A stretch of 23,258 nucleotides of DNA from a virus: positions 1-23,258 of IMG/VR virus record IMGVR_UViG_3300003885_001113, one strand, 5' to 3'. The notes beneath the pieces are model-generated. The model ran no database searches. It was not told where the DNA came from and saw only the letters and a program-made list of their open reading frames with translations. Shown here in pieces: positions 5,652 to 21,906 of this stretch (positions are counted from its first letter, which is position 1; the number at the start of each line of letters is the position of its first letter). The position numbers and the translations under genes were made by a program.

Positions 5652-6476
5652 TCATAAATATTCCGGTAGCTTCGTATACTTGTCTATGTGAGCAGATTCA
5701 ATCTGCTCACACGTGAGCCCTATAACTCCACGTAGGTCTGCTCCCCTAAAATTGGCTTCCCGCATATCGACGTACCGCATGCGGGCGCCTTCGAGGTGGG
5801 CTTCCAGCAGATCGGCTCTTTCTATATGAGCGCACCACATGTTGGCTCCACGCAGGTTAGCGCCCCACAGGTTGGCTCTTTCCATGTGGGCGTTCCATAG
5901 GATGGCGCCCTTCAGGTTGGCGCCTACTAGATTGGCTCCACAAAGATGGACTTCATACATATTAGCGCCCCGCATATCGGCTATTTCAAGATCGGCGTCC
6001 TCGAGGATGGCGCCATATAGGTCAGCGTCCCGCAGGTTGGCTTCCCGCAGGTTGGCGCCCTTCATGTGGGTTCCCCGCAGGTTAGCGCTTTCCAAGTTGT
6101 CGCTTTCGAGGTCGGCTTCACGCAGGTTGGCTCCCTCCAGGTTAGCGCACCACAGGTCGGCTTCACGCAGGTTGGCTCCCTTCATGTTGGCTCCACGCAG
6201 GGTAGCGCCCTTTATGTCGGCTCCTTCCAGGTGGGCGCCCTTCATGTCGGCGTCCTCCAGGTGGGCGCCACACAGATCGGCGCCTTCCAGATTGGTTTCC
6301 CGCAGGTTGGCGCCTTCCATGTTGGCACACCACAAGTTGGCTCCCTCGAGGTGGGCGCCTTCCAGGTGGGCGCCTTCCATGTGTGCCTTGTGTGTCACGC
6401 AGAGGTCTGCGTAGCTCTTTGCTTCACCTATGATATCGGGTTTCCCATCATCGAATATGATCTTGTATGTTTTCAT
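5652..6476 (-). CDS. Pentapeptide-repeat protein D (274 aa), the longest copy
   Basis: The cap MKTYKIIFDDGKPDIIGEAKSYADLCVTHKAH is followed by about 42 pentapeptides (roughly ten coils), then GLTCEQIESAHIDKYTKLPEYL and an immediate stop. The start at 6476 follows CCAAAGGAG at a 5-base spacing; an open extension to 6641 is only spacer. The stop codon overlaps the next gene's ribosome binding site, so the spacer found after copies A and E is absent here. Repeat composition is close to A-N-L-x-G/E with many alanine-glycine turns. A 23-bp palindrome lies near its 3' end. Similar blocks occur in copy C, such as the ten pentapeptides near the N-terminus. The target is unknown. Confidence 0.9.
   Translation of the reverse strand: MKTYKIIFDDGKPDIIGEAKSYADLCVTHKAHMEGAHLEGAHLEGANLWCANMEGANLRETNLEGADLCGAHLEDADMKGAHLEGADIKGATLRGANMKGANLREADLWCANLEGANLREADLESDNLESANLRGTHMKGANLREANLRDADLYGAILEDADLEIADMRGANMYEVHLCGANLVGANLKGAILWNAHMERANLWGANLRGANMWCAHIERADLLEAHLEGARMRYVDMREANFRGADLRGVIGLTCEQIESAHIDKYTKLPEYL
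5688..5710. repeat. 23-bp palindrome in the 3' end of pentapeptide gene D
   Basis: Arms GTGAGCAGATT and AATCTGCTCAC are perfectly complementary around one central base. In mRNA this could fold as a stem of ten or so pairs. It encodes the CEQIESAH part of the family ending and recurs perfectly at 7447-7469 and with one mismatch in copy C near 1250. Confidence 0.8.
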
Positions 6477-6509
6477 GAGTTCTCCTTTGGCCCCGTGGGG
6501 GGCGTCTCC
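6477..6509 (-). promoter_or_regulatory. Leader hairpin upstream of pentapeptide gene D
   Basis: On the - strand GACGCCCC, a CCAC loop and GGGGC form a 5-bp perfect stem (6490-6494 with 6499-6503), followed directly by CAAAGGAG and the start codon. It is one of the clearest members of the leader family. Confidence 0.65.
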
Positions 6510-6570
6510 GAAGGTGTGGGGCTGGCAGGCGTTGGAGTTACGCTCTTCGGGTCTACACCCTAGCCAGCCA
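6508..6570 (-). repeat. Conserved intergenic spacer block, copy 4 (complete)
   Basis: The most complete copy. It has the CCGAAG/CTTCGG inverted repeat (6508-6513, 6545-6550), the GGGT/ACCC hairpin, and the bases leading to the stop codon of pentapeptide gene E. It connects gene E with gene D. Confidence 0.75.
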
Positions 6571-6573
6571 TCA

Positions 6574-7131
6574 TTATGCCTGAACCTGCCGACATAAATA
6601 TTCCGGCAGTTGCGTATGCTCATCAATATGAGCAGCTTCAATCTGAGCCGCTGTGAGCCCTACTGCTTCCCGCATGTAGGCTCCGGTTAGGTTAGCTTTT
6701 TCCAGGTTGGCGCATTCCATGTTGGCGTACCATAGGTCGGCTTCACGCAGATCGGCTCTTTCCAGGTGGGCGCCTTCTAGATTGGCGCCGGTTAGGTAGG
6801 CTCCTTCCATGTTTGCTTCCTCGAGGATGGCGCCCTTCATGTTGGCTCCCTCGAGGTGGGCTCCCTCGAGGTTGGCGCCCTTCATGTTGGCCCCCTGCAT
6901 ATTGGATCCTTCCAGGTGGGCATACCCCATGTTGGCTCCCTCGAGGTGGGCTCCCTCGAGGTTGGCGCCCTTCATTTTGGCTTCCCGCAGGTGGGCGCCA
7001 CGTATGTCGGCGTCCTCCATATGGGCGCCACACAGATCGGCCCTGTGAATCACGCAGAAGTCTGCGTAGCTCTCTGCTTTTCCTATGATATCGTGTTTCC
7101 CATAATTTCTTATGATCTTGTATGTTTTCAT
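6574..7131 (-). CDS. Pentapeptide-repeat protein E (185 aa)
   Basis: The cap MKTYKIIRNYGKHDIIGKAESYADFCVIHRAD is followed by about 25 pentapeptides, then GLTAAQIEAAHIDEHTQLPEYL and CRQVQA. It has the same length and tail as copy A, which suggests they are the closest pair at the ends. Two 48-bp segments (6838-6885 and 6928-6975) are identical and 90 bp apart, a duplication of six pentapeptides. It also shares a 48-bp block with copy C. It starts after CCAAAGGAG in a hairpin leader. Function unknown; gyrase or another DNA-binding protein is a possible partner by family analogy. Confidence 0.9.
   Translation of the reverse strand: MKTYKIIRNYGKHDIIGKAESYADFCVIHRADLCGAHMEDADIRGAHLREAKMKGANLEGAHLEGANMGYAHLEGSNMQGANMKGANLEGAHLEGANMKGAILEEANMEGAYLTGANLEGAHLERADLREADLWYANMECANLEKANLTGAYMREAVGLTAAQIEAAHIDEHTQLPEYLCRQVQA
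6838..6975 (-). repeat. Internal 48-bp direct repeat in pentapeptide gene E
   Basis: Positions 6838-6885 and 6928-6975 are identical, offset 90 bp (6 x 15), so reading frame and helix register are preserved. Like the 73-bp repeat in copy A, it indicates recent expansion by unequal exchange. Confidence 0.8.
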
Positions 7132-7525: not shown

Positions 7526-7915
7526 TTATTCGCACCACAGGTCGGCGCATCGCAGTTTGGCTTCCCGCAGGTTGGCGCCTTTCAGGTTGGCTTCCCATGC
7601 GGGACCGCTATCTGTCATTTTCACATCAGCTGGAAGCATGATTCCCATATATATTTCCTCGGGAGTATATTTTGTACTCAATTTTTTTGTCATTTCGAAC
7701 ACAGAATCGATCATTTCGATTATCTCTGCTATCTCTTTCTCAGTATGATCATCATACTGACAGTCGTAGTTTATTTCTTGTATCTTGTTGTGGATATTTA
7801 GAAATTCTTTCCGGGAATAAAAGGCCCGATAGTGAGCTTCAGTGGGTCTTTTCTTCCCTTCTGCGAAATTATTTTTAGCCGCTTCAATTTTTTCTATCAT
7901 CTCTTCGTGTTTCAT
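7526..7915 (-). CDS. Helical domain fused to truncated pentapeptide repeats, F (129 aa)
   Basis: Unlike the other copies it has a different N-terminal domain of about 105 residues, highly charged and helical (MKHEEMIEKIEAAKNNF, then EIAEIIEMIDSVFEMTKKL). Five pentapeptides follow (EANLKGANLREAKLRCADLW) before a premature stop. The remaining repeats and the GLTCEQI...LPE ending are present downstream in another frame, so the original protein was probably about 165 residues. It starts after AAAAGGAG at a 5-base spacing, with the hairpin leader. I do not recognise the N-terminal domain; the fusion could attach a different effector to a pentapeptide scaffold. Programmed shifting is unproven. Confidence 0.75.
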   Translation of the reverse strand: MKHEEMIEKIEAAKNNFAEGKKRPTEAHYRAFYSRKEFLNIHNKIQEINYDCQYDDHTEKEIAEIIEMIDSVFEMTKKLSTKYTPEEIYMGIMLPADVKMTDSGPAWEANLKGANLREAKLRCADLWCE

Positions 7916-11224: not shown

Positions 11225-13089
11225 TGCCTGAAACTGGACAAAATTTATCACAAACCGACAAACAATTGCTTGACAAAATCTGTAAATGGAAAACCGAGTC
11301 AGGTGATTTGCGCTCCGAATTAGACCGGCGTTGGACAAAAAGCATGAAGCTTGTTAAAGGTATCTGGTCATCTGATGAACCATCCAAGAGTCATGTCCGG
11401 CAGAAAGAAAAGACTTGTTACCGTAAGATACATGCTATAAAGTGGCGATTTATGGCGGCTATGTATCAAGCTTTTCTAAAGGATTTAGATAGTTTTAAAA
11501 TCAGTGGCCGCGATACTTTACGCGACACTCATAAAGCATCCATCCTGCAACTTATAACTGAGTGGCGCAGGGATGGTATGCTGAGGACACAAAGCCTGTT
11601 TAAGCAATTACTGTGCGGGTTCGCCAACATATTCGACATGGGAGTAGCGGTTGCGAAAATGACTTGGGAGTATTTACCAGAACAAGGCAAGGATGGCCCA
11701 AGGTTCAAGCTTTGGCCTAACGAACAATTTTACCCTGATTTCTTTGCGGAAACCAAAGAGGAAATGCGTTACTGTATCTTTGAGTCGTTTATGACAAAAG
11801 AAGATATGGAAGCTAAGAATTACGACAATATAGAGAAAGCGCTTGCAACTCTTCCGCCACAAAGTGACGTTCGGGCTGTTCGACAAGCCGGTCAGCCTGA
11901 CACTCTACAAAACCCACAGAACACAGAATATCCAGAGGCAGGAAAATATGCCGAGGGTAACAAAGATATTGTCCCAGCCAGGCATAGCGTCCTGGAGGTT
12001 TTCTATAAAGAAGATAATAAAATAATGTTTACTGTTGTGAATGGCGATAATGTTGTGCTTCAGCAACCAGACGAGAGCCCCTATGGAGACACTTATGATA
12101 TGCTAATTATTGGGGAATGTTTGCTTGAAGCCCACAAATTAATAGGCGAAGATTTCCCGTCCCCTATGGAGGGGTCAGCTGAGAGTATTAATTACTTTCT
12201 TAATATGCGGAAAGATAATATTGCATTAACTTTGTCGCCGCAAAAAAGAGTTAATCGCTTTGCGAATGTTGATTTAAAGGCTTTGCTAAACCAAAAGGCT
12301 GGCGGTATTGTCATGATGGATGATATTGATAAGTCAACTATGCCAGAAATTACACCTGATGTTACACGACCAGCATACATGGAAGCGGCAGCAGATGAAG
12401 CTATGATGCAGGAAATAAGCGGGTTTACACCTCCAATATCCGGAACAATTGGAGCAGACATAAAAGCAACGGTTGCAAGGATAAATTATGCTGAGGCTAA
12501 CGCTAAGATAGAACTCTATATAGCAATTGTTGGAGAAACGTTTATCCGTGATTTCTTTTCTACATTAGCAAGACTTATCCAGCGCTTTGAGACAGATGAG
12601 ACCATTTTTTCTATTGCGAACGATACCTTTAGGCAGAAGCAGCAAAACCCATTTATCCCAGATCAATATGACCTGGATTTTGAAGCTGATTGCATTATAA
12701 ACGTAGGAACAAGCATAGTTGGTCGTGAACTTGAAATACAGCAATTACTTTTAGTTATGGATAGAGCGAACATGGCAAATCAAAGCTCCATACAATTGCT
12801 AACTATAGGCGCTCAACCACCAGGTGGTGTTGAGTTATTTAATACAAACTATTTCCTGAAAAAAATATTAAATAAAATAGGGCAAAAGGATTATAGTGAG
12901 GCTATTTACCGATTATCACCACCACCTCAGCAGGGACAAGGCGGACAAAACCCGTCTATTGCTGGCTTAGGACAGCCGCAGATTGGCGGTAGAGAGACAC
13001 TTGCTGGCTTAGGACAGCCGCAGATTGGCGGTAGAGAGACACTTGCTGGCTTAGGACAGCCGCAGATTGGCGGTAGAGAGACACTTTAA
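11224..13089 (+). CDS. Portal protein (621 aa) with a repeated tail
   Basis: The dodecameric ring at the capsid vertex through which DNA enters and leaves. Its position after the large terminase, its length and the segments KLWPNEQFYPDFF and FPSPMEGSAESINYFLNMRKDNI match podovirus-type portals. Residues about 580-621 consist of three identical 14-residue units (AGLGQPQIGGRETL) after a glutamine/glycine/proline-rich linker, an unusual portal C-terminus. It begins at the TAATG of the terminase stop and ends in another TAATG with the next gene. The tail is likely flexible and exposed. Confidence 0.88.
   Translation: MPETGQNLSQTDKQLLDKICKWKTESGDLRSELDRRWTKSMKLVKGIWSSDEPSKSHVRQKEKTCYRKIHAIKWRFMAAMYQAFLKDLDSFKISGRDTLRDTHKASILQLITEWRRDGMLRTQSLFKQLLCGFANIFDMGVAVAKMTWEYLPEQGKDGPRFKLWPNEQFYPDFFAETKEEMRYCIFESFMTKEDMEAKNYDNIEKALATLPPQSDVRAVRQAGQPDTLQNPQNTEYPEAGKYAEGNKDIVPARHSVLEVFYKEDNKIMFTVVNGDNVVLQQPDESPYGDTYDMLIIGECLLEAHKLIGEDFPSPMEGSAESINYFLNMRKDNIALTLSPQKRVNRFANVDLKALLNQKAGGIVMMDDIDKSTMPEITPDVTRPAYMEAAADEAMMQEISGFTPPISGTIGADIKATVARINYAEANAKIELYIAIVGETFIRDFFSTLARLIQRFETDETIFSIANDTFRQKQQNPFIPDQYDLDFEADCIINVGTSIVGRELEIQQLLLVMDRANMANQSSIQLLTIGAQPPGGVELFNTNYFLKKILNKIGQKDYSEAIYRLSPPPQQGQGGQNPSIAGLGQPQIGGRETLAGLGQPQIGGRETLAGLGQPQIGGRETL
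12961..13086 (+). repeat. Three perfect 42-bp tandem repeats at the portal 3' end
   Basis: Units 12961-13002, 13003-13044 and 13045-13086 are identical in DNA and encode AGLGQPQIGGRETL each time; the stop codon follows at once. Perfect identity implies recent expansion, and copy number may vary between relatives. Confidence 0.93.
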
Positions 13090-13505: not shown

Positions 13506-14399
13506 ATGTCGGAAGAAACAACGGAAACTACAGCAGAGTTAGGTACATACATTAATCATGATGCCAATTCAGCTTTAAATGAATTAGACAAAAGAAACGA
13601 TCCTGTTGAGTCAGAAGAGACGGAGACTTCCCCCGAAGAGGAAGATACGGAGACCTCTTCCGAAAAAGAGGTAACAGAGGAAGACACAGAAGAAGAGACG
13701 GAGGCTTCCCCCGAAGAGGAAGATACGGCCCAAAAGGGCAGGCCGAAAAAAACAGTCCCTATAGATGCTTTGCATGAGGAACGGGAAAAGAGAAAGGACC
13801 TTCAACGGGCGCTTGATAATACAAACCGGCAACTCTTAGAGGTTCAACAGTCAATCAAGCAAGCACAGAGCGAAAAGGAAGCAGGAATTCCTCCCGAAGA
13901 TGAATATGAACGTAAGGAATGGGAGCGTGACCGTGAAATATCTGCGCTAAAGAAAAGAGTGGCCACCAATGAACAGGCAAATCAGCAGAGGACACAAGAC
14001 CAGGAAAGAAAAAACCTGATTGACAGAATCGATCTTGTGGACAAAGAGTTGGGTGAAGAAGGGTATTCTGGATTTAAAAACTTTACGCCATTAATTACAC
14101 AGGAATTGAATACCCTTATTGCTGACGATCCTGCAAATAGATCGCTAGATTCTCAAGAAGGATGGAAAAAGATTTACAAGGAAATCGTTTTCCCCCGAGC
14201 CAAAAAAATGTTTTTAAAGCAAGACAAGAACCGCATTTTTGCTGAGAAAACGCGGTTGAAGGAAAAAGCTAACCTAAGCGCTTCTCCTGGAAAATCTGCA
14301 AAGCAAAAAGAAAAAAAGAAAGAGGAAGATAACTTTGATAACTACCAAAAAGAGCGGAAATTAGAATCTGAAAAGAGGAAAAATGACACTCTTTGGTAA
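13506..14399 (+). CDS. Capsid scaffolding protein (297 aa)
   Basis: The composition is typical of phage scaffolds: an acidic E/T/S-rich N-terminal third (residues 30-75, with repeated SPEEEDTE), a coiled-coil middle (ALHEEREKRKDLQRALDNTNRQL) and a strongly basic C-terminus (KQKEKKKEE and KERKLESEKRK). The C-terminal basic end usually contacts the coat protein. It lies directly before the capsid gene and starts after AAAAAGGAGATATA, a very strong site. An imperfect duplication in the acidic region (about 13620 and 13702) suggests length variation. Confidence 0.82.
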   Translation: MSEETTETTAELGTYINHDANSALNELDKRNDPVESEETETSPEEEDTETSSEKEVTEEDTEEETEASPEEEDTAQKGRPKKTVPIDALHEEREKRKDLQRALDNTNRQLLEVQQSIKQAQSEKEAGIPPEDEYERKEWERDREISALKKRVATNEQANQQRTQDQERKNLIDRIDLVDKELGEEGYSGFKNFTPLITQELNTLIADDPANRSLDSQEGWKKIYKEIVFPRAKKMFLKQDKNRIFAEKTRLKEKANLSASPGKSAKQKEKKKEEDNFDNYQKERKLESEKRKNDTLW

Positions 14400-14412: not shown

Positions 14413-15381
14413 ATGGCTCTTAATTGGATTGACCAAGGGGGCTACTTAAGTAACGGCAAACTAAACCATATTTTTAGAAAAGTGGCGCAACCTCTGCTCC
14501 GGTTCAGACAGTTTGTCGGCTACAAAGAAGCCTTTGGTAAACATGAAGGGGAGTCTGTAAACTGGGATAAAGCCGGGAATATTGATACCTACGGCGGTAA
14601 ATTAGTAGAGACTCAAACCATGCACGAAGCTGGTTTTGCTATTACCCAGGGCACCCTTACTGTGACTGAGTATGGAAATAGCATTCCGTTCACAAGTAAG
14701 ATGGAGTCTCTATCTGAATTTGAATTAATTCAGTTAATAAAAGACACTCTCATGAACGATGCCGTAAAATGTATAGACGGCGAGGTGGAGCGGAGTTTTA
14801 ACCAAACAGCTTTACGGTACGTGGCTACCGCTACTGATGCTGCTACTGTAACTACTGACGGAACTGCAACCGCCGTGAACACAAGCATCCTTAATGCCTA
14901 TCATTTCAGGAAGATGAAGCTGGAATTACAAATCCGGAATGTCTCTGGATGGGGAAGCATGGGAGGCGATTATGTGTTTATTTGCGATCCAGTAACACTG
15001 GAAAGCCTTTTGGGTTCACTGGAGACTATTAATTCTTATACCGAAACTGGATACAAGAAAATTCTATCTGGTGAAATTGGAAGGTTGTACGGTGTTAGGA
15101 TTGTGGAAGACCGTTTCGCAACACGGTTTGTCTATGATTCAACTGCCAGAACAGCTACCGCAATAACTTGGGCTCAAGGAAAGGCGCTGCCCGGTTATAT
15201 GTTTGGCTCCCCGACCGTCAGGGAGGCTGTGGTATATAATCTGGAACTCCGCAAGAAATTAATTACTGATTACGGACGTTCACATGGGTTAGCCTGGTAT
15301 TTCCTTGGTGGCTGGAAAGAAGAATATGGTGTAAACGAAGCCAGCAATTCCAGAATCATAAAATGGGATAGCGCCAGCTAA
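14413..15381 (+). CDS. Major capsid protein (322 aa), HK97-fold type
   Basis: Follows the scaffold at 13 bases with a GGAGG site. Residues 40-110 show the pattern of N4-gp56-like coat proteins (GESVNWDKAGNIDTYGGKLVET, then TVTEYGNSIPFTSKME), leading to a helical spine (FELIQLIKDTLMNDAVKCIDGEVERSF) and a beta-rich A-domain-like part with VFICDPVT. The length suits a T=7 type coat without a cleaved delta domain, in keeping with the separate scaffold and no protease gene. The family assignment is my recognition from the pattern, not a search. Confidence 0.82.
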   Translation: MALNWIDQGGYLSNGKLNHIFRKVAQPLLRFRQFVGYKEAFGKHEGESVNWDKAGNIDTYGGKLVETQTMHEAGFAITQGTLTVTEYGNSIPFTSKMESLSEFELIQLIKDTLMNDAVKCIDGEVERSFNQTALRYVATATDAATVTTDGTATAVNTSILNAYHFRKMKLELQIRNVSGWGSMGGDYVFICDPVTLESLLGSLETINSYTETGYKKILSGEIGRLYGVRIVEDRFATRFVYDSTARTATAITWAQGKALPGYMFGSPTVREAVVYNLELRKKLITDYGRSHGLAWYFLGGWKEEYGVNEASNSRIIKWDSAS

Positions 15382-15393
15382 AGGAGGTTTACA

Positions 15394-15903
15394 ATGAGAT
15401 ATGATGAAGCCAAATACGGAGTTATTAACCGTAAATGGTTTGGTTTAACTAAAAAACATGGCGGGGATGCTGCTGATGGTTATACTTTCGGCACAACCGA
15501 TGCTACCACGCAAAGTCATTTAGCCTACTGGTATCCACGCGGCCCAATAAATATCCGTAAATTTGGCGCCAAGGTGCTAGCAAGTATTGTTGCTGGCTCC
15601 CAGGATTATACTGATATAATTACGGCAAAGTTATTAACAAGAGGCGCTTCTGCCTCTATCGGAGGAACGTTCAGTTTTGATATTGATGGAGGAACAATTG
15701 CTCCTCATACATTTTCCTCTGTTGAAGGTTTGGCTACTAAATGCAAAGCCGGTGAATATATTGCCATTAAAACTGGCACTCCATTAACCAATGACGGGAC
15801 AGCGGCTAATACAGCCACTACTTCCGGTACGGTAGCTTTCTTTGTTGATTGGATGCCTCGGTATGATGGCTCTTCTGATTGGGACACAAATCCAAGTAAC
15901 TAA
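15394..15903 (+). CDS. Capsid-associated or decoration-like protein (169 aa)
   Basis: Placed 12 bases after the capsid gene with a perfect AAAGGAGG site, implying high expression. Glycine-, threonine- and alanine-rich with short beta stretches (GGTFSFDIDGGTIAPHTFSS, TATTSGTVAFFVDWMPRY). No known enzyme motif. Position and composition fit a head decoration or head-fibre protein. I do not recognise a named family. Confidence 0.62.
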   Translation: MRYDEAKYGVINRKWFGLTKKHGGDAADGYTFGTTDATTQSHLAYWYPRGPINIRKFGAKVLASIVAGSQDYTDIITAKLLTRGASASIGGTFSFDIDGGTIAPHTFSSVEGLATKCKAGEYIAIKTGTPLTNDGTAANTATTSGTVAFFVDWMPRYDGSSDWDTNPSN

Positions 15904-15910
15904 TTAAACC

Positions 15911-15934
15911 ATGGGGCGGGGAAACTCGCCCCAT
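15911..15934 (+). other. Strong hairpin at the left border of the glycan cassette
   Basis: ATGGGGCG (15911-15918) and CGCCCCAT (15927-15934) form a perfect 8-bp stem with an 8-base loop. No T-run follows on the + strand, so it is not a classic terminator. It sits between the capsid module and the AT-rich cassette and may set mRNA stability or partial termination. Confidence 0.5.
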
Positions 15935-15943
15935 TGAGGTTTC

Positions 15944-17002
15944 ATGAATATTGTAATGTTATCCAGTCACGCCTGCATTCGGGTTCAAAAAATGGCTTTG
16001 CCATTACTTGAAAAAGGGTATCAAGTTCATCTTATTGCTAACAAAAAACCCCAGTTCCATGAGCAATACAAAACATTTTGTCAGTATGGAGATTTAGGAC
16101 AGTTAATTGAATCTATAAAAGTATATAGTAAAATAGCTGATGTATTTCATGCCCATAATGAACCTAGTTGGTTTGTAACAATAGTTAAAGAAAATACCAA
16201 TGTGCCTGTCATTTTAGATGTGCATGATTCGTTTTTGGCTAGAATGACATCTGAAGAAGAAGATGCTGCAAGAGATAAAGGTGAAGAAACATACAGGGTT
16301 ATTACTGATGAACGCAATAATTTTCAGTTGGCAGACGCTCTTGTTTTTCCTTCAGATTCATTAAAAAAGCTTGTGACGGAAGAGTTTAATTTGTCGCAAC
16401 CAACGATAACTCTTCCTAGTTATTTGCCGAAACGATTATATAGATATGATTGCAGGGAATGGCTCGGGGGATTAGTTTATGAAGGTAGAGTTGATCTTGG
16501 AAAAGATATTGAGAAAAATTATAAACAAAGAGGTTTTAAATATTGTGACTATGAGGAATTAGCAAAGCAAGCATTTAGTCTCGGCATAGATTTTCATTTA
16601 AGAACTACCAGAGAAGATGCTGATTTTGTTAATACTTATAGTGAAATAGCTTTTGTACATAAACCGGCGCCTATATCAGAACTTATTAAGCATTTAACTA
16701 AGCATGACTGGGGATTAGTTGGCAATCTGGATCATACCCCTGAATGGGAAATAGCTTTCCCTAATAAACTTTTTGAGTATATAGCAGCTAGCGTTCCTGT
16801 AGTATCCATTAACGCCAAAGAATGTTCTGAATTTGTCAAGAAACATGACTTAGGGATAGAGGTGGAATCGCTTGAAGAATTACGGGATAGATGGCCTCAG
16901 CATAGAAGTTTTAGGGGAAAATTAATTAAAAAGAGACAACAATTTACAATGGAGAATAATATAAAACCATTAGAGGAGTTATATGCAAGTTTCACAAACT
17001 AA
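15944..17002 (+). CDS. GT-B glycosyltransferase (352 aa), first cassette gene
   Basis: A two-domain GT-B enzyme of GT4-like type. The N-terminal half has MLSSHACIRVQKMALPLLEKG and DVFHAHNEP (66-74) with LDVHD (91-95). The C-terminal donor-binding half has FPNKLFEYIAASVPVVS (272-288), typical of nucleotide-sugar binding. It should transfer a sugar to a glycan, lipid or protein acceptor; donor and acceptor cannot be read from sequence. Base composition turns markedly AT-rich here compared with the capsid genes. Start after GAGG at 15936-15939. It overlaps the methyltransferase gene by 20 bases. Confidence 0.82.
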   Translation: MNIVMLSSHACIRVQKMALPLLEKGYQVHLIANKKPQFHEQYKTFCQYGDLGQLIESIKVYSKIADVFHAHNEPSWFVTIVKENTNVPVILDVHDSFLARMTSEEEDAARDKGEETYRVITDERNNFQLADALVFPSDSLKKLVTEEFNLSQPTITLPSYLPKRLYRYDCREWLGGLVYEGRVDLGKDIEKNYKQRGFKYCDYEELAKQAFSLGIDFHLRTTREDADFVNTYSEIAFVHKPAPISELIKHLTKHDWGLVGNLDHTPEWEIAFPNKLFEYIAASVPVVSINAKECSEFVKKHDLGIEVESLEELRDRWPQHRSFRGKLIKKRQQFTMENNIKPLEELYASFTN

Positions 17003-17597
17003 TAAGGTAATAGAATATTGGGATTCAGTAGCAGAAAATAATTGTCCTACCAAAACAAATATTATTTGTGATAATTGGCATAAAAGACAACAAATAGTTA
17101 GACATTTACTTAAATATAATTTTATTGGGAAAAAAATTATAGAAGTAGGATGTGGGATTGGAATAACCGCAGCAACTATTAGGTTTGCGGCTGGAATGCC
17201 AAAATATTCTGGTTTTGATATAAGCCAAAGATTTTGTAATGTAGCAAAACACATATTAAACTTGAATGTCAAATATGGTGAAATAATAGATATCCCAGCA
17301 GAAAGTTGTGAATTTGATTGTATATTTTTATTTGATGTTTTAGAACATATTGGAGTGACAGATAGACAGAAGGCATTCATGGAAGTAGATAGAGTTTTAA
17401 AAGATAGCGCTATGATATTTATTAATAATCCAATTACTAAAAGTGGTCATCCTGAACAATTTGATTATGGATTTGATGAAAATGATTTGGCTCATTTATG
17501 CAAAACTACTTCGGCAAGAATTGAAGAAGTCAGCATAATAAGAATAAAACCAAAGAACAAATTGTATGAATATCAATTTATTGTTCTAAAAAGGTAA
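16983..17597 (+). CDS. SAM-dependent methyltransferase (204 aa)
   Basis: Class I methyltransferase fold: motif I IIEVGCGIG (52-60), GFDIS (77-81) and FDVLEHI (117-123), the last typical of small-molecule and sugar methyltransferases. Within a glycan cassette it probably methylates a sugar, either as a cap or in nucleotide-sugar synthesis. No DNA-methyltransferase catalytic motif (NPPF, PC) is visible. It overlaps the previous gene and precedes the next by 3 bases, so they are co-translated. AT-rich codons match the cassette. Confidence 0.82.
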   Translation: MQVSQTNKVIEYWDSVAENNCPTKTNIICDNWHKRQQIVRHLLKYNFIGKKIIEVGCGIGITAATIRFAAGMPKYSGFDISQRFCNVAKHILNLNVKYGEIIDIPAESCEFDCIFLFDVLEHIGVTDRQKAFMEVDRVLKDSAMIFINNPITKSGHPEQFDYGFDENDLAHLCKTTSARIEEVSIIRIKPKNKLYEYQFIVLKR

Positions 17598-17600
17598 CTA

Positions 17601-18479
17601 ATGAAACATATTCAAATAATTACACCATTTAAAATGCAATGGTTATCTGGTTACAGAAAAATATTCTCAGATTTTCGTGTAACAATATCAGATAGTCCAC
17701 ACCCAGAGGTTAATCCTGATGTAATGATGTTCATGTGGGCGGATTTACAGACAAAAGATTTTATTAATAATTATCACAAAAAGAGTAAATATGTCGTGTT
17801 TGTCCGGCGATATGAATTATTCTTTTTTGATATGATTTCCATAGACTGGGATAAAGTTGATGAAATAATTATGGTAAATGATGTCTTGGCTCAAGAGTTT
17901 GAGGAAATTACCAACAGAACCCCGCATGTTATTTACAACGGCGTAATCCCTGAAGAGTGGACTTATAGGGAAAGAGGACATGGAAAAAAGATTGCCTGGG
18001 TTGGATTTATTAATTCTAAAAAAAACTTACAGTTAGCATTGCAAATCTTAAATGAATTGCCAAAAAATTATGAATTTCACATAGCTGGAACTGTTCAGGA
18101 TGCATTTATTATGCTTTACCTCAGGAAGATGGCAGAACTTATGGAGCTAAAAAATATTATCTTCTATGGACAGGTTAAAAACATGAATGAATGGTTAGAC
18201 GATAAGAACTACATTTTGTCAACAGCTATTTCTGAAGGTTGCCCAAATAATGTAATCGAGGCTATGGCCAAAGGAATTAAGCCAATTATACATATGTGGC
18301 CTGGGGCAGATATACAATTTCACAAACATACATTTATAACGGCAACCGAAGCAAAAGGAATGATAAGCCCCGGGTCAGAATATGACAGTGTAAAATACCG
18401 TCATTTAATAGAAATATATTTCGGGTTAGATACTTTCAAAAAAGTGAGGGAACTCGTGGAGGGTTTATGGGGAAAATAG
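17601..18479 (+). CDS. GT4-family glycosyltransferase (292 aa)
   Basis: Carries the EX7E motif: E212 and E220 in SEGCPNNVIEAMAKGIKPI, with KNLQLALQILNEL (141-153) in the typical GT4 donor domain. The N-terminal acceptor domain is short (about 120 residues against the usual 170), so this is a compact member. It likely adds a sugar to the same glycan as the flanking enzymes. It overlaps the dehydrogenase-like gene by 13 bases. Confidence 0.82.
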   Translation: MKHIQIITPFKMQWLSGYRKIFSDFRVTISDSPHPEVNPDVMMFMWADLQTKDFINNYHKKSKYVVFVRRYELFFFDMISIDWDKVDEIIMVNDVLAQEFEEITNRTPHVIYNGVIPEEWTYRERGHGKKIAWVGFINSKKNLQLALQILNELPKNYEFHIAGTVQDAFIMLYLRKMAELMELKNIIFYGQVKNMNEWLDDKNYILSTAISEGCPNNVIEAMAKGIKPIIHMWPGADIQFHKHTFITATEAKGMISPGSEYDSVKYRHLIEIYFGLDTFKKVRELVEGLWGK

Positions 18480-19246
18480 TAAAAGCTATTGTTGTGGGGC
18501 TTGGTGAAATTGGTATGCCTTTATATGAGATACTCAAATATGTATACGCCGATACAATTGGGTATGATAAGGATTTTATTATAAAAAATAGAGTCAAGGA
18601 AAATTTCAATTCTAAAGAGATGCTCGTTCATAATTGCGAATATCTTAATATATGTATTCCATATGAGGAGAATGACTTTTTTTATGACGTTGCCAAATAC
18701 GTATATTACAGTAATGCAAAATATACAATCATTCATACTACGGTTCCAATAGGAACGACCAAAAAAATACAGGAATTTTTGCCAGTGAATTTGCTCAACT
18801 CAAAAATTGTTCATAGTCCTGTTATGGGACGTCATGACAATATGAAAAGTAGTCTCTATAATACCGTAAAGTTTATTGGTGGAAATAAGAAAGATACGGA
18901 AGCTGTTGCCGAATTTCTTAATGGAGCAAAGATTTCATGTTACCAAGTAGATAAAGCAAAAACAACAGAAGCGCTTAAATTGTTTTCATTAAGTAGATAT
19001 GGTTTAGATATCGCTTTTGCTGATTATGAGAAACAAATTTGTAATGAATTGAATATTCCTTGGGAAGCAGTAAATTATTGGACATCCATATATAATTTGG
19101 CTGTGCCAAAAAATCTAAAAAGATCATACATAAAACCACCTGAAGGAAAAATCGGCGGACATTGTGTTATCCCTGGAGCAAAAATGCTTCATAATCAGTA
19201 TCCTAATCCTATGTTAGTGGAGGTCTTAAAATGCGGGAAAAAATAA
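18467..19246 (+). CDS. Shortened nucleotide-sugar dehydrogenase-like protein (259 aa)
   Basis: Resembles UDP-glucose/GDP-mannose dehydrogenases. It has an N-terminal Rossmann segment ([10 protein letters not shown], residues 9-18), TTVPIGTT (91-98, equivalent to STVPPGTT), and IGGHCVIPG with a cysteine (C233) at the position of the catalytic thiol. At 259 residues it lacks the C-terminal substrate-binding domain of the usual enzyme of about 420. It may bind NAD(P) and act on a different substrate, or work with a partner. The frame is intact and overlaps both neighbours, so it looks maintained rather than decayed. Confidence 0.72.
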
Positions 19247-19644
19247 CGATATGGGGGCCAAGCAATATATATAATAGCGCAAAACTTGGAAGTAATGTTC
19301 AGGTTGGCGCTTTTACTGAAATTGGAGAAAACGTCCAGGTTGGAAATGGCGTAAGGATTGGATTTAATTGTTTCATTCCAGAAAATATTAAAATAGAAAA
19401 TAAAGTATGGATTGGGCCAAGAGTAACATTTACTAATGATATGTATCCACCTTCAGGGAAAGATAAGTGGAAAACTACGTTAGTAAAAAACTGTGCCCGT
19501 ATTGGTGCAGGAGTAACAGTTTTACCTGGAATAATTATCGGAGAAGGAGCCCTGATTGGCGCAGGTTCAGTTGTAACAAAAAATGTGCCAGCAGGGGAAG
19601 TTTGGGCTGGTAATCCAGCAAAAAAAATTAATGGTGAGAAATGA
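19231..19644 (+). CDS. Left-handed beta-helix acetyltransferase (137 aa)
   Basis: Hexapeptide repeats ([LIV]-G-x4) run through most of the protein ([22 protein letters not shown] and later [23 protein letters not shown]), ending [16 protein letters not shown], a classic acyltransferase end. It probably O- or N-acetylates a sugar. Its length is short for the class but complete. It overlaps the dehydrogenase-like gene by 16 bases and the GT9 gene by 4 (ATGA). Confidence 0.88.
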
Positions 19645-20657
19645 AAAAATGTTTAGTGATCCGGTGGGGAGCGTTTGGCGACCATATCTTCCTGACACCC
19701 ATATATCCATTGCTTAAGGCTGATGGGTGGCATATTACAGTCTATACCAGCAAAGCGGGACTATCCATACTTAAGAACAACCCGCATGTTGACAAAATTA
19801 TTAGACGCCCGGTTGAGTTCAGGAGAGATAATGTTACTAAAGATGAATTGGACAAGCACTGGGCAGAAGTAAGTAACGGTTATGATAGAGTAATTAATTT
19901 TTCAGGCTCCATAGAAGGGGCTTTATTAAAAACAATCCATAGCAAAGATATCTTGTTGAGCAAAGAAAAGTTGATGGAGCTCTGCAATATAAACTATTAC
20001 GATCGAATGCTAGAGATTGCTGGATATCCAGAGAAAAGTGGAGCCAAGGCAGAGCTTTATTTTTCTAACATGGAAAAGAAATTATCCAAAAAGTTTAGGG
20101 ATAAATGGGTTGGCAAATTCCTGATTATATGGCCATTAAGTGGGTCGAGTTCACACAAGGCATACCCATGGGCTGACTTATTGGCTAGCGACTTATTGGC
20201 TAGATATGATGATATCGTAATCATAACAACGGGGGATGCTCTATGCGGGCTGATTAATTTCCCGCAGCATGATAGAGTTAGGAATTTTTCGGGTCAATGG
20301 TCGTTCAGAAGAGCAATGAGTATTGTTCCCCATGCCGACTTAGTTGTGGGTGGAGACACTGGACTGTTACATGTTGCTGGTTGCTATGATGTCCCGAAAG
20401 TTTTAATGCTGACCACAAACACTAAAGAATGTTTAGCTAAACATTGGGATAATGTAACATGCGTATCGGCTAATGTCCCCTGCCAGCCGTGCTTTAAATT
20501 GCATTATTCTATGAAAACCTGCAATTATTATAAAACAGCATCTGGGAAACCTGTTGCCCCGATGTGCACCTTACATTTAAAGCCTCAAAAAGTATTTGAA
20601 GCAATCGAAAAATATTATCTTAACTGGAAGGAGAAAAAATATGCCAGGGGCATTTGA
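19641..20657 (+). CDS. GT9 heptosyltransferase-like glycosyltransferase (338 aa)
   Basis: N-terminus [19 protein letters not shown] (nucleotide-binding loop) and C-terminal [23 protein letters not shown] with the diagnostic GGDTGxxH motif place it in glycosyltransferase family 9, which includes LPS heptosyltransferases. Two cysteine-rich stretches near the end ([16 protein letters not shown]) are common in this family. Its acceptor may be host LPS core. Codon use is less AT-rich than the rest of the cassette. Overlaps the next gene by 17 bases. Confidence 0.86.
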
Positions 20658-20997
20658 GTATCGTGGAGCCAGGCGACTCTATGTAGAGGACGGCAAAGCT
20701 TACACATCTGAATACAAGCGACAAGAGCTTGACTATGTTACGTTAGAGCCCGTTGGAGAGGAACATGAGCCAGCACAAATTCTTTCGGAATTGCCTGAGC
20801 CTGGGAGTTCTGGAGATAAATACATTGGGAAAAAGAAGGATGGGAATGAAGTGGTTATTGGGAATCGTGAGCAAATGAAAAATATTTTGCTTCGGCACCA
20901 TCTTAAAGATTTGCTAAGTAAATATAAAGTTACGATTGTAAAAGGTAAAACTAAAGAAAAAGTAGTAGATGAAATATTAAATATTCTTGGTTATTAG
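20641..20997 (+). CDS. Small virion-module protein (118 aa), unknown
   Basis: Start at 20641 (MPGAFEYRG) is chosen because GGAGAAAAAT precedes it; the open frame to 20596 has no site. The first part is polar and proline-rich. The C-terminal 40 residues (LRHHLKDLLSKYKVTIVKGKTKEKVVDEILN) resemble SAP- or HeH-like DNA-binding helices seen in small phage virion proteins. A head-completion role is inferred from position. Confidence 0.65.
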   Translation: MPGAFEYRGARRLYVEDGKAYTSEYKRQELDYVTLEPVGEEHEPAQILSELPEPGSSGDKYIGKKKDGNEVVIGNREQMKNILLRHHLKDLLSKYKVTIVKGKTKEKVVDEILNILGY

Positions 20998-21006
20998 GAG
21001 AAGAGA

Positions 21007-21906
21007 ATGGCAGCGCCTAGCGCACCAACTTTAATTTCCATAACAACAGAAGCGTTGCTTAAGGCTAAAACCTTTAATTCGATTAATTTGAGCAGAGCGC
21101 AAGACGAATGGATGGAGGAAATTAAGAACGATATTTGGATGCTTGTGAAGAAATCAAGGTATTTACAAACATCTAACATATTTGTTATTACCAATGGCGA
21201 AGGGTTAATCTCATACCCATCAGACTTTTCCTCCGACCTGAGCCTGGCCAAAATGGATTGCACTCATTTTGGGGTTTGTCAGGCTGGTGGTAGCGTAACA
21301 ATAGCAAAGTTGGCTTCCGATGAAGATATGTCCGAGTCATATTCCATTGGCAGAGAAATTATTGTTTATTTGACAACGGACAAAACATCTACCTATAGCG
21401 GATTTATTACCGCTTTCGATGAAAGCACAAAAATTGCAACTTTCGCTCCTGCTATTACTATTAGCGCAGGAACAACTTACAGCTATATGATTATAGATAG
21501 CTACGAGCCTATAGAGGGGCCAAAACACATAATCAGACTGGACGAACTTTATAATTATGCAAACAGGGGAATACCGAGAAGCTTTTACCCTATTGGGAGC
21601 AATGATTATGGCAGTTTTTATTTGTATCCGGTTCCTTATAGGACAAGTTCTGTTCCTTGGGCAATAAGACAACGGTATTATGCTAATCTTATGACCCTTG
21701 ATTTGTCTGGCACATTAATAGCGACACTATATTTGCGGTGGCGCAGCTTGTTTGTGCAAGGAGTTTTTGCTAACGCTTTACTTGACATTGATGATAACCG
21801 CGCAAACATAGAATTTCAAAAATACAGAGCAATGTTACAAGTGTTTATCGCAAGGGAACAATACGGCATGGATTTGAGCGACATGCAAATAATAGTTAAA
21901 GTATAA
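21007..21906 (+). CDS. Head-tail adaptor/gatekeeper-like protein (299 aa)
   Basis: Helical N-terminus (RAQDEWMEEIKNDIWMLVKKSRYLQTS), a beta insertion (residues 95-165), and a helical C-terminus with FYLYPVPYRT and WRSLFVQGVFANALLDIDDNRANIEFQ. This layout resembles podovirus adaptor proteins (P22 gp4/T7 gp11-like) that bind under the portal. Start follows AGGAGAAGAG. Recognition is by pattern, so the name is provisional. Confidence 0.68.
   Translation: MAAPSAPTLISITTEALLKAKTFNSINLSRAQDEWMEEIKNDIWMLVKKSRYLQTSNIFVITNGEGLISYPSDFSSDLSLAKMDCTHFGVCQAGGSVTIAKLASDEDMSESYSIGREIIVYLTTDKTSTYSGFITAFDESTKIATFAPAITISAGTTYSYMIIDSYEPIEGPKHIIRLDELYNYANRGIPRSFYPIGSNDYGSFYLYPVPYRTSSVPWAIRQRYYANLMTLDLSGTLIATLYLRWRSLFVQGVFANALLDIDDNRANIEFQKYRAMLQVFIAREQYGMDLSDMQIIVKV

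Follow-up and report, generated by a model that had tools for sequence, protein, structure and literature searches.

The virus record IMGVR_UViG_3300003885_001113 of IMG/VR, a fragment of 23,258 nucleotides (nt) that is taken here over its whole length and called the window, carries a run of six consecutive open reading frames (ORFs) without internal stops on its plus strand (15944-20657), which encode candidate glycan-modifying enzymes. This cassette lies inside the virion gene module: on its 5' side are genes for a scaffold protein (starting at 13506), the major capsid protein (MCP; 14413) and a 169-amino-acid (aa) protein (15394), and on its 3' side a small gene (20641) is followed by that of an SU10-type adaptor (21007). 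Because the portal (match to SU10_portal, 1.9e-16) and the adaptor both belong to SU10 families, the window comes from an uncultured phage related to the SU10-like podoviruses. A first-pass annotation made from the sequence alone had named the six enzyme families and their place between capsid-associated and adaptor genes, and the ORFs and matches in Pfam, NCBIfam and PHROGs bear this out. Its statement that the genes overlap holds for five of the six junctions, counting that between the last enzyme gene and the next gene (overlaps of 4-20 nt), while the genes called MT and GT4b below are spaced 3 nt apart. The features are as follows.

14413..15381, plus strand: major capsid protein, MCP type 1 (PHROG 1357 major head protein, 1.2e-16); left boundary of the exchanged block
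15394..15903, plus strand: putative capsid decoration protein, deco type A, 169 aa; first gene of the exchanged block
15911..15934, plus strand: terminator-like hairpin with an 8-bp GC-rich stem (folding energy -23 kcal/mol, z -5.0)
15944..17002, plus strand: GT4a, GT-B glycosyltransferase, family 4-like (Pfam Glyco_transf_4, 3.8e-7)
16983..17597, plus strand: MT, class I S-adenosylmethionine (SAM)-dependent methyltransferase (Pfam Methyltransf_11, 1.3e-12)
17601..18479, plus strand: GT4b, GT-B glycosyltransferase, family 4-like (Pfam Glyco_trans_1_4, 9.2e-11; phrog_2170 glycosyltransferase, 1.1e-12)
18467..19246, plus strand: DH, short protein resembling nucleoside diphosphate (NDP)-sugar dehydrogenases (TIGR03026, NCBIfam NDP-sugDHase, 2e-11; PHROGs, 9.1e-11; weak in Pfam)
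19231..19644, plus strand: LbH, left-handed beta-helix acyltransferase (Pfam Hexapep, 1e-20)
19641..20657, plus strand: GT9, heptosyltransferase-family glycosyltransferase (Pfam Glyco_transf_9, 2.7e-11; TIGR02195, 2.5e-9)
20641..20997, plus strand: small gene between GT9 and the adaptor, without a Pfam family match; relatives have genes of 149-174 aa in a similar place
21007..21906, plus strand: SU10-type head-tail adaptor (Pfam SU10_adaptor, 1.1e-7); right boundary

Glycosyltransferases between the capsid and adaptor genes

Relatives, numbered here as L loci, were gathered with anchors that are independent of the cassette, namely the terminase large subunit (TerL), the adaptor and the MCP, and they fall into two capsid types, type 1 (that of the window) and type 2 (SU10_MCP-like). 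Among loci that can be read for 2.5 kb or more past the MCP gene, with the window included and near-duplicates kept, the MCP-adaptor interval encodes a glycosyltransferase in 37/38 type-1 and 27/27 type-2 loci (64/65 in total). Expressed as clusters at 90% MCP identity, these figures become 19/20 and 12/12 (31/32), and none of the 65 loci has a glycosyltransferase upstream of the MCP gene. The first-pass annotation had reckoned that its reading would fall if the same genes sat here across a broad phage lineage with matching composition and had no effect on glycans; of this, the lineage-wide position is what these 64 loci display.

The single exception is the cultured Vibrio phage 219E41.1. The window's MCP is up to 63% identical to those of environmental relatives and ~36% identical to those of the Escherichia phages PTXU04 and Bas95 and of Vibrio podoviruses; in PTXU04, Bas95 and Vibrio 1.232.O the interval holds small genes, none of them annotated as, or matching, a glycosyltransferase. 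The SU10-like/C3-podovirus module of these phages and of 219E41 shares with the window a homologous MCP and the order terminase-portal-scaffold-MCP-adaptor, whereas these cultured MCP type-1 podoviruses have only small interval genes and no glycosyltransferase among them.

Of the 121 interval ORFs, Pfam assigns 18 to Glyco_trans_1_4 and 14 to Glycos_transf_1, with methyltransferase, radical-SAM, sulfotransferase and hexapeptide families also present, while the 25 families listed for 120 control ORFs elsewhere on the same contigs include no glycosyltransferase. All glycosyltransferase matches in 16 long relatives fall in the interval, two of them only if the contigs are circular. GT9 is the most constant interval gene of the type-1 lineage, with homologues of 37-45% identity in most type-1 contigs; in the type-2 group an interval glycosyltransferase abuts the adaptor gene. 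A search of 50,697 phage records returned no relatives of GT9, DH, GT4b or the sulfotransferase, the cassette proteins gave no matches when each was run singly against viral contigs, and a TerL profile search of genome contigs found no relative.

One may ask whether the interval is a neutral hotspot, a gap that tolerates cargo of which glycan genes are a common kind with no shared role. Its content does vary widely, and HNH endonuclease-like ORFs have also been inserted here, between the glycan genes of L015 and L017. Such a hotspot is nevertheless very improbable, given that glycan-related genes occur in 31 of the 32 MCP clusters, that GT9 is kept at 37-45%, that the frames are open and that their composition is adapted to each phage.

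Several loci show further variants. The intervals of L088 (4962-8072), L092 (10930-14112) and L049 (7971-10001) encode proteins of 676-1060 aa with glycosyltransferase-like and other domains, the very large one of L092 including methyltransferase domains. A possibly glycan-related ORF of the type-2 relative L008 (13569-14363) lies outside the usual interval, between portal and scaffold. The MCP search also turned up one contig, L100 (JAGWFS010000009.1), that is binned in a Thaumarchaeota metagenome-assembled genome and whose type-1 capsid locus includes a GT9-like gene; this may reflect either contamination of the bin or an archaeal virus and does not suffice to name a host.

Exchange of the decoration gene with the enzymes

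To judge from comparisons of closely related contigs, the gene behind the MCP behaves as a member of the cassette and is exchanged exactly from the MCP gene end. L015 and L018 share ~80% DNA identity through the capsid gene; this identity ends in the last MCP bases and restarts at a sulfotransferase gene. Between these two points L015 carries deco A, GT4a, MT, GT4b and an oxidoreductase, and L018 carries deco B only. Between the same two boundaries L068, whose MCP and GT9 are 97% and 91% identical to those of L015, has a third, unrelated block composed of another decoration-like gene, an MptE-like/methyltransferase fusion and a radical-SAM/SPASM protein. The MCP, downstream sulfotransferase and GT9 genes are common to all three. 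In another pair, the source contigs of L076 and L053 (43.5 kb each), the MCPs are 94% and the adaptors 83% identical, and deco A and four enzymes have no counterpart.

Relatives of deco A sit directly behind the MCP, and deco A precedes GT4a in 7/7 type-1 MCP lineages that have GT4a, L096 having only a C-terminal-like fragment of it. The cassette type of the window is scattered over the MCP tree, on which cassette type changes at least 5 times. The nearest MCP relative of the window, L064 (63%), has an MptE-like/radical-SAM/sulfotransferase/GT9 set together with a decoration-like protein that is 28% identical to that of L068 (E 1e-4). The exchanged unit should be read from the start of the decoration gene (15394) rather than from 15944.

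The name decoration protein is putative and is based on position, size and fold. The predicted model of deco A is all-beta and jelly-roll-like (pLDDT 76), with weak fold matches in the PDB (best Z 8.7; Pam1 capsid chain 7eel_H, Z 7.6) and a weak similarity to a tailed-virus turret protein as well; these weak matches suggest a jelly-roll-like beta fold only. Its role as acceptor has to be weighed against glycosylation of another virion part, such as the tail fibre, a head fibre or the MCP itself. The cassette also adjoins the MCP gene and precedes the tail genes, the type-2 interval glycosyltransferase abuts the adaptor gene, and mycobacteriophage glycans sit on both capsid and tail tube. The MCP, however, hardly changes (94-97% identity) between phages whose cassettes are entirely different. 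If the acceptor is specific to the cassette, the decoration protein, being exchanged along with it, is therefore the likelier one, and another acceptor seems a rather poor candidate.

In L096 (8714-10648) the MCP gene itself is split into frames of 118 and 216 aa by an insertion with an HNH-like ORF on the opposite strand, which is probably an intron or homing element.

The enzymes of the cassette

According to Pfam the window encodes three glycosyltransferases, GT4a, GT4b and GT9. Homologues of GT4a occupy the same place in relatives (43-57% identical), and those of MT are 32-34% identical. GT9 matches Glyco_transf_9 above the cut-off and has the canonical motif DTGxxH of its family, where many phage relatives have ETGxxN.

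DH retains GxGxxG, TVPxGTT and GGHC and gave a VIA Z of 16.1 to 3g79 in structure comparison. It ends ~25 residues past GGHC, lacks the C-terminal nucleotide-sugar domain and scores far below the TIGR03026 cut-off, so that 18467-19246 does not encode the three domains of a UDP-sugar 6-dehydrogenase. Since the third domain is missing its substrate is uncertain, and on its sequence we call it only dehydrogenase-like. The PDB entries closest to LbH in phmmer are those of QdtC/WlbB-type NDP-aminosugar N-acetyltransferases (QdtC 3fs8, 5.8e-28; 3mqg, 8.1e-20). DH and LbH form one fused protein in L067 and L065, which speaks for a common pathway of the two. A programmed frameshift joining them in the window was considered and rejected: the overlap has just six A and no canonical in-frame slippery site, and independent, translationally coupled genes are therefore preferred. 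In L015, L073 and L090 a Gfo/Idh oxidoreductase and a sulfotransferase replace DH and LbH.

Radical-SAM proteins, some with SPASM, are encoded in the intervals of L003 (17659-18741), L028 (7795-8865), L033 (7269-8357), L064 (5019-6011) and L111 (2370-3389, minus strand). SPASM enzymes often modify peptides, and a second kind of virion-protein modification is therefore possible.

None of the six enzymes has a clear membrane segment, and Pfam finds no flippase, polymerase or lipid-carrier transferase in the cassette, nor any match to the GtrA flippase or GtrB membrane transferase among the six proteins.

Base composition

The first-pass annotation had described the genes as AT-rich, which the GC content of 35.0% for the glycan genes against 42.3% for the virion genes agrees with (a deficit of 7.3 points; GT9 alone, at 40.3%, is near the virion-gene value). 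Across 23 contigs the glycan genes are lower in GC than the virion genes in 22, with a mean deficit of 3.3 points, and from 33 to 61% GC their values track those of the phage that carries them (r = 0.93, with kin contigs among the 23 being non-independent). A low GC that is lineage-wide and matched to each phage is no evidence for recent foreign import. The earlier proposal of an acquired cassette, understood as such an import, is accordingly rejected on synteny and composition, with glycosyltransferases in the interval throughout the lineage. The window's deficit (-7.3) ranks among the largest in the set, so that here the block may have been exchanged more recently among members of the lineage.

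A hairpin behind the decoration gene

All type-A phages that were folded have a GC-rich hairpin where the decoration gene gives way to the first enzyme gene (gap energy -17 to -32 kcal/mol). Several other relatives have hairpins at this spot too, as behind deco B and deco C; the MCP-deco gap of the folded phages has no comparable structure. The hairpin keeps its position but varies in sequence among phages. Compared with shuffled versions of each gap it has z-scores from -0.6 to -5.2, so that its strength differs case by case. As in intrinsic terminators, U6-U7 comes after the stem in L015, L073 and L068; the window has a poor U-run at this point. Phage T7 is known to have a partial terminator behind its capsid gene that lowers downstream expression. 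The simplest reading is that the hairpin may likewise act as a partial terminator that would keep expression of the enzymes below that of the capsid proteins. Promoter-like sites, examined for a private promoter of the enzymes, numbered 45 versus 41 in shuffles (sd 6.6), which is no excess and lends such a promoter no support.

Other features of the window

At its C-terminal end the portal protein (gene positions about 12960-13089) carries a 14-residue repeat three times in near-identical copies (LAGLGQPQIGGRET). On the minus strand, 41-1906, 5652-7131 and 7526-7915 hold ORFs for five proteins with pentapeptide repeats, along with a shorter ORF related to them; matches to Pfam Pentapeptide reach 1.9e-77. 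Most of these ORFs have a common N-terminal segment (MKTYKIIF..GKP.IIG.A.SYA..CV), and they are of 54-57% GC in surroundings of about 40-45%. Such multiplied pentapeptide-repeat genes are unusual for a phage; DNA mimicry is possible for pentapeptide proteins.

Discussion

We propose, with a probability of roughly 0.6, that the enzymes of the cassette are expressed late and glycosylate the virion, with the decoration protein as their probable acceptor. According to this proposal, the block 15394-20657 would be a virion glycosylation module in the presumably late operon of the capsid genes, in which the hairpin, placed after the genes for the abundant capsid and decoration proteins, would reduce expression of the enzymes. 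GT9 would add a conserved sugar, GT4a and GT4b may attach further sugars, and the dehydrogenase-like, acyltransferase and methyltransferase proteins may modify these. The most probable acceptor would be the decoration protein encoded just upstream, because its gene and the enzymes are exchanged as one block between phages. The benefit might be, for example, escape from capsid-binding factors, altered adhesion to surfaces or particle stability. Virion glycosylation is favoured by the position and co-exchange of the genes, the lack of membrane export parts, the rarity of integrases and the lack of thymidylate-synthase family proteins in the 16 long relatives. The late structural-module location and the glycosylation of virion proteins, which the first-pass annotation had offered as one of two outcomes, thus gain indirect support from the lineage-wide position and from the co-exchange with the decoration gene.

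The other outcome offered there was a change of the host envelope against superinfection. In this scenario, lipopolysaccharide (LPS) core or surface polysaccharide would be altered late in infection, blocking superinfection or preventing released progeny from adhering to spent cells. Members of the GT9 family are, as a rule, LPS heptosyltransferases (TIGR02195, 2.5e-9), the hexapeptide protein resembles O-antigen sugar acetyltransferases, and tail-fibre genes vary along with the cassette in one contig pair. On the other hand, no flippase, polymerase, polyprenyl-phosphate transferase or GtrA/GtrB-type membrane protein accompanies the enzymes, the decoration gene is part of the exchanged block in all three alleles, little time would be left if expression is late, and an integrase family occurs in just 1/16 long relatives (the window record being a fragment). 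Envelope modification is in our view possible but clearly less likely than virion glycosylation, and its proposed role against superinfection lacks specific support.

Virus-encoded glycosyltransferases of other phages glycosylate DNA, as related in PMC12619734 (citing Pyle 2024), and hypermodification of DNA by the present ones may be imagined. But thymidylate-synthase/hydroxymethylase family members are found in 0/16 long relatives (these are fragment records, and the window itself was not searched), and the genes, which vary together with a putative capsid-surface gene, are part of the virion module; among the alternatives we regard this one as the least probable. Both DNA glycosylation and lysogenic conversion of the gtr type are unlikely. 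In temperate phages gtr and O-acetylase genes bring about lysogenic conversion and resemble the window's genes as phage-borne glycan-modifying enzymes; the window cassette, in contrast, comes without GtrA/GtrB membrane proteins, in a virion module and with no integrase found nearby.

Several points weigh against virion glycosylation as proposed here. The glycan, the enzyme activities and the acceptor are in this case predictions from the genes, and enzymes for LPS or polysaccharides predominate among the known relatives of GT9 and LbH. Neighbouring genes can co-exchange without functional coupling. An independent-pairs test was underpowered: supported branches offered only 3 informative pairs, which all pointed the same way (p 0.25). 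The tail-fibre genes also differ between the L076 and L053 contigs, so a coupling to receptor choice is possible. Finally, the gene behind the MCP in the type-2 group encodes a different protein of ~100 aa, which may or may not be a decoration protein.

Phage virion glycosylation is a known kind of system. The mycobacteriophages Che8, Corndog and Myrna have their own glycosyltransferases, and glycans were demonstrated on their capsid and tail-tube proteins (PMC12363180, citing Freeman 2023); this glycosylation is described as shielding the particles from antibodies. In mycobacteriophage Maravista the glycosylation enzymes are reported near the genome end (PMC11256854). The likeness lies in phage-encoded glycosyltransferases proposed to act on virion proteins. 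Here, in contrast, a podovirus has a predicted multi-enzyme set whose genes immediately follow a putative decoration gene and move between phages together with it. A further likeness is to the Maf flagellin glycosyltransferases and the MptE-like family: in L064 and L068 MptE-like proteins, a kind that the window lacks, stand together with methyltransferase proteins in place of the window's enzymes. Our literature search, which missed most subscription papers, found no account of an exchangeable, decoration-protein-linked multi-enzyme glycan cassette in podoviruses; such a cassette would be a new variant, if virion glycosylation is confirmed.

With this in mind, one may tentatively, and at odds a little short of even, see in the environmental SU10-like podoviruses a widespread modular capsid glycotype system, in which the capsid stays near-constant while a decoration protein and a dedicated glycosylation pathway are swapped as a unit. 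With a likely acceptor named and close relatives carrying three alternative coats, the idea is directly testable. If it is true, the swapping of capsid glycotypes resembles that of bacterial O-antigen or flagellin-glycosylation loci, and the heads of a widespread environmental podovirus lineage would be routinely sugar-coated by the phages' own enzymes, with coat types exchanged like bacterial serotypes. It would further mean that in the environment the sugar coat of phage heads is under selection, and that the capsid is selected by something other than the host cell's interior, be it adsorbing surfaces, predators, capsid-binding proteins or particle loss.

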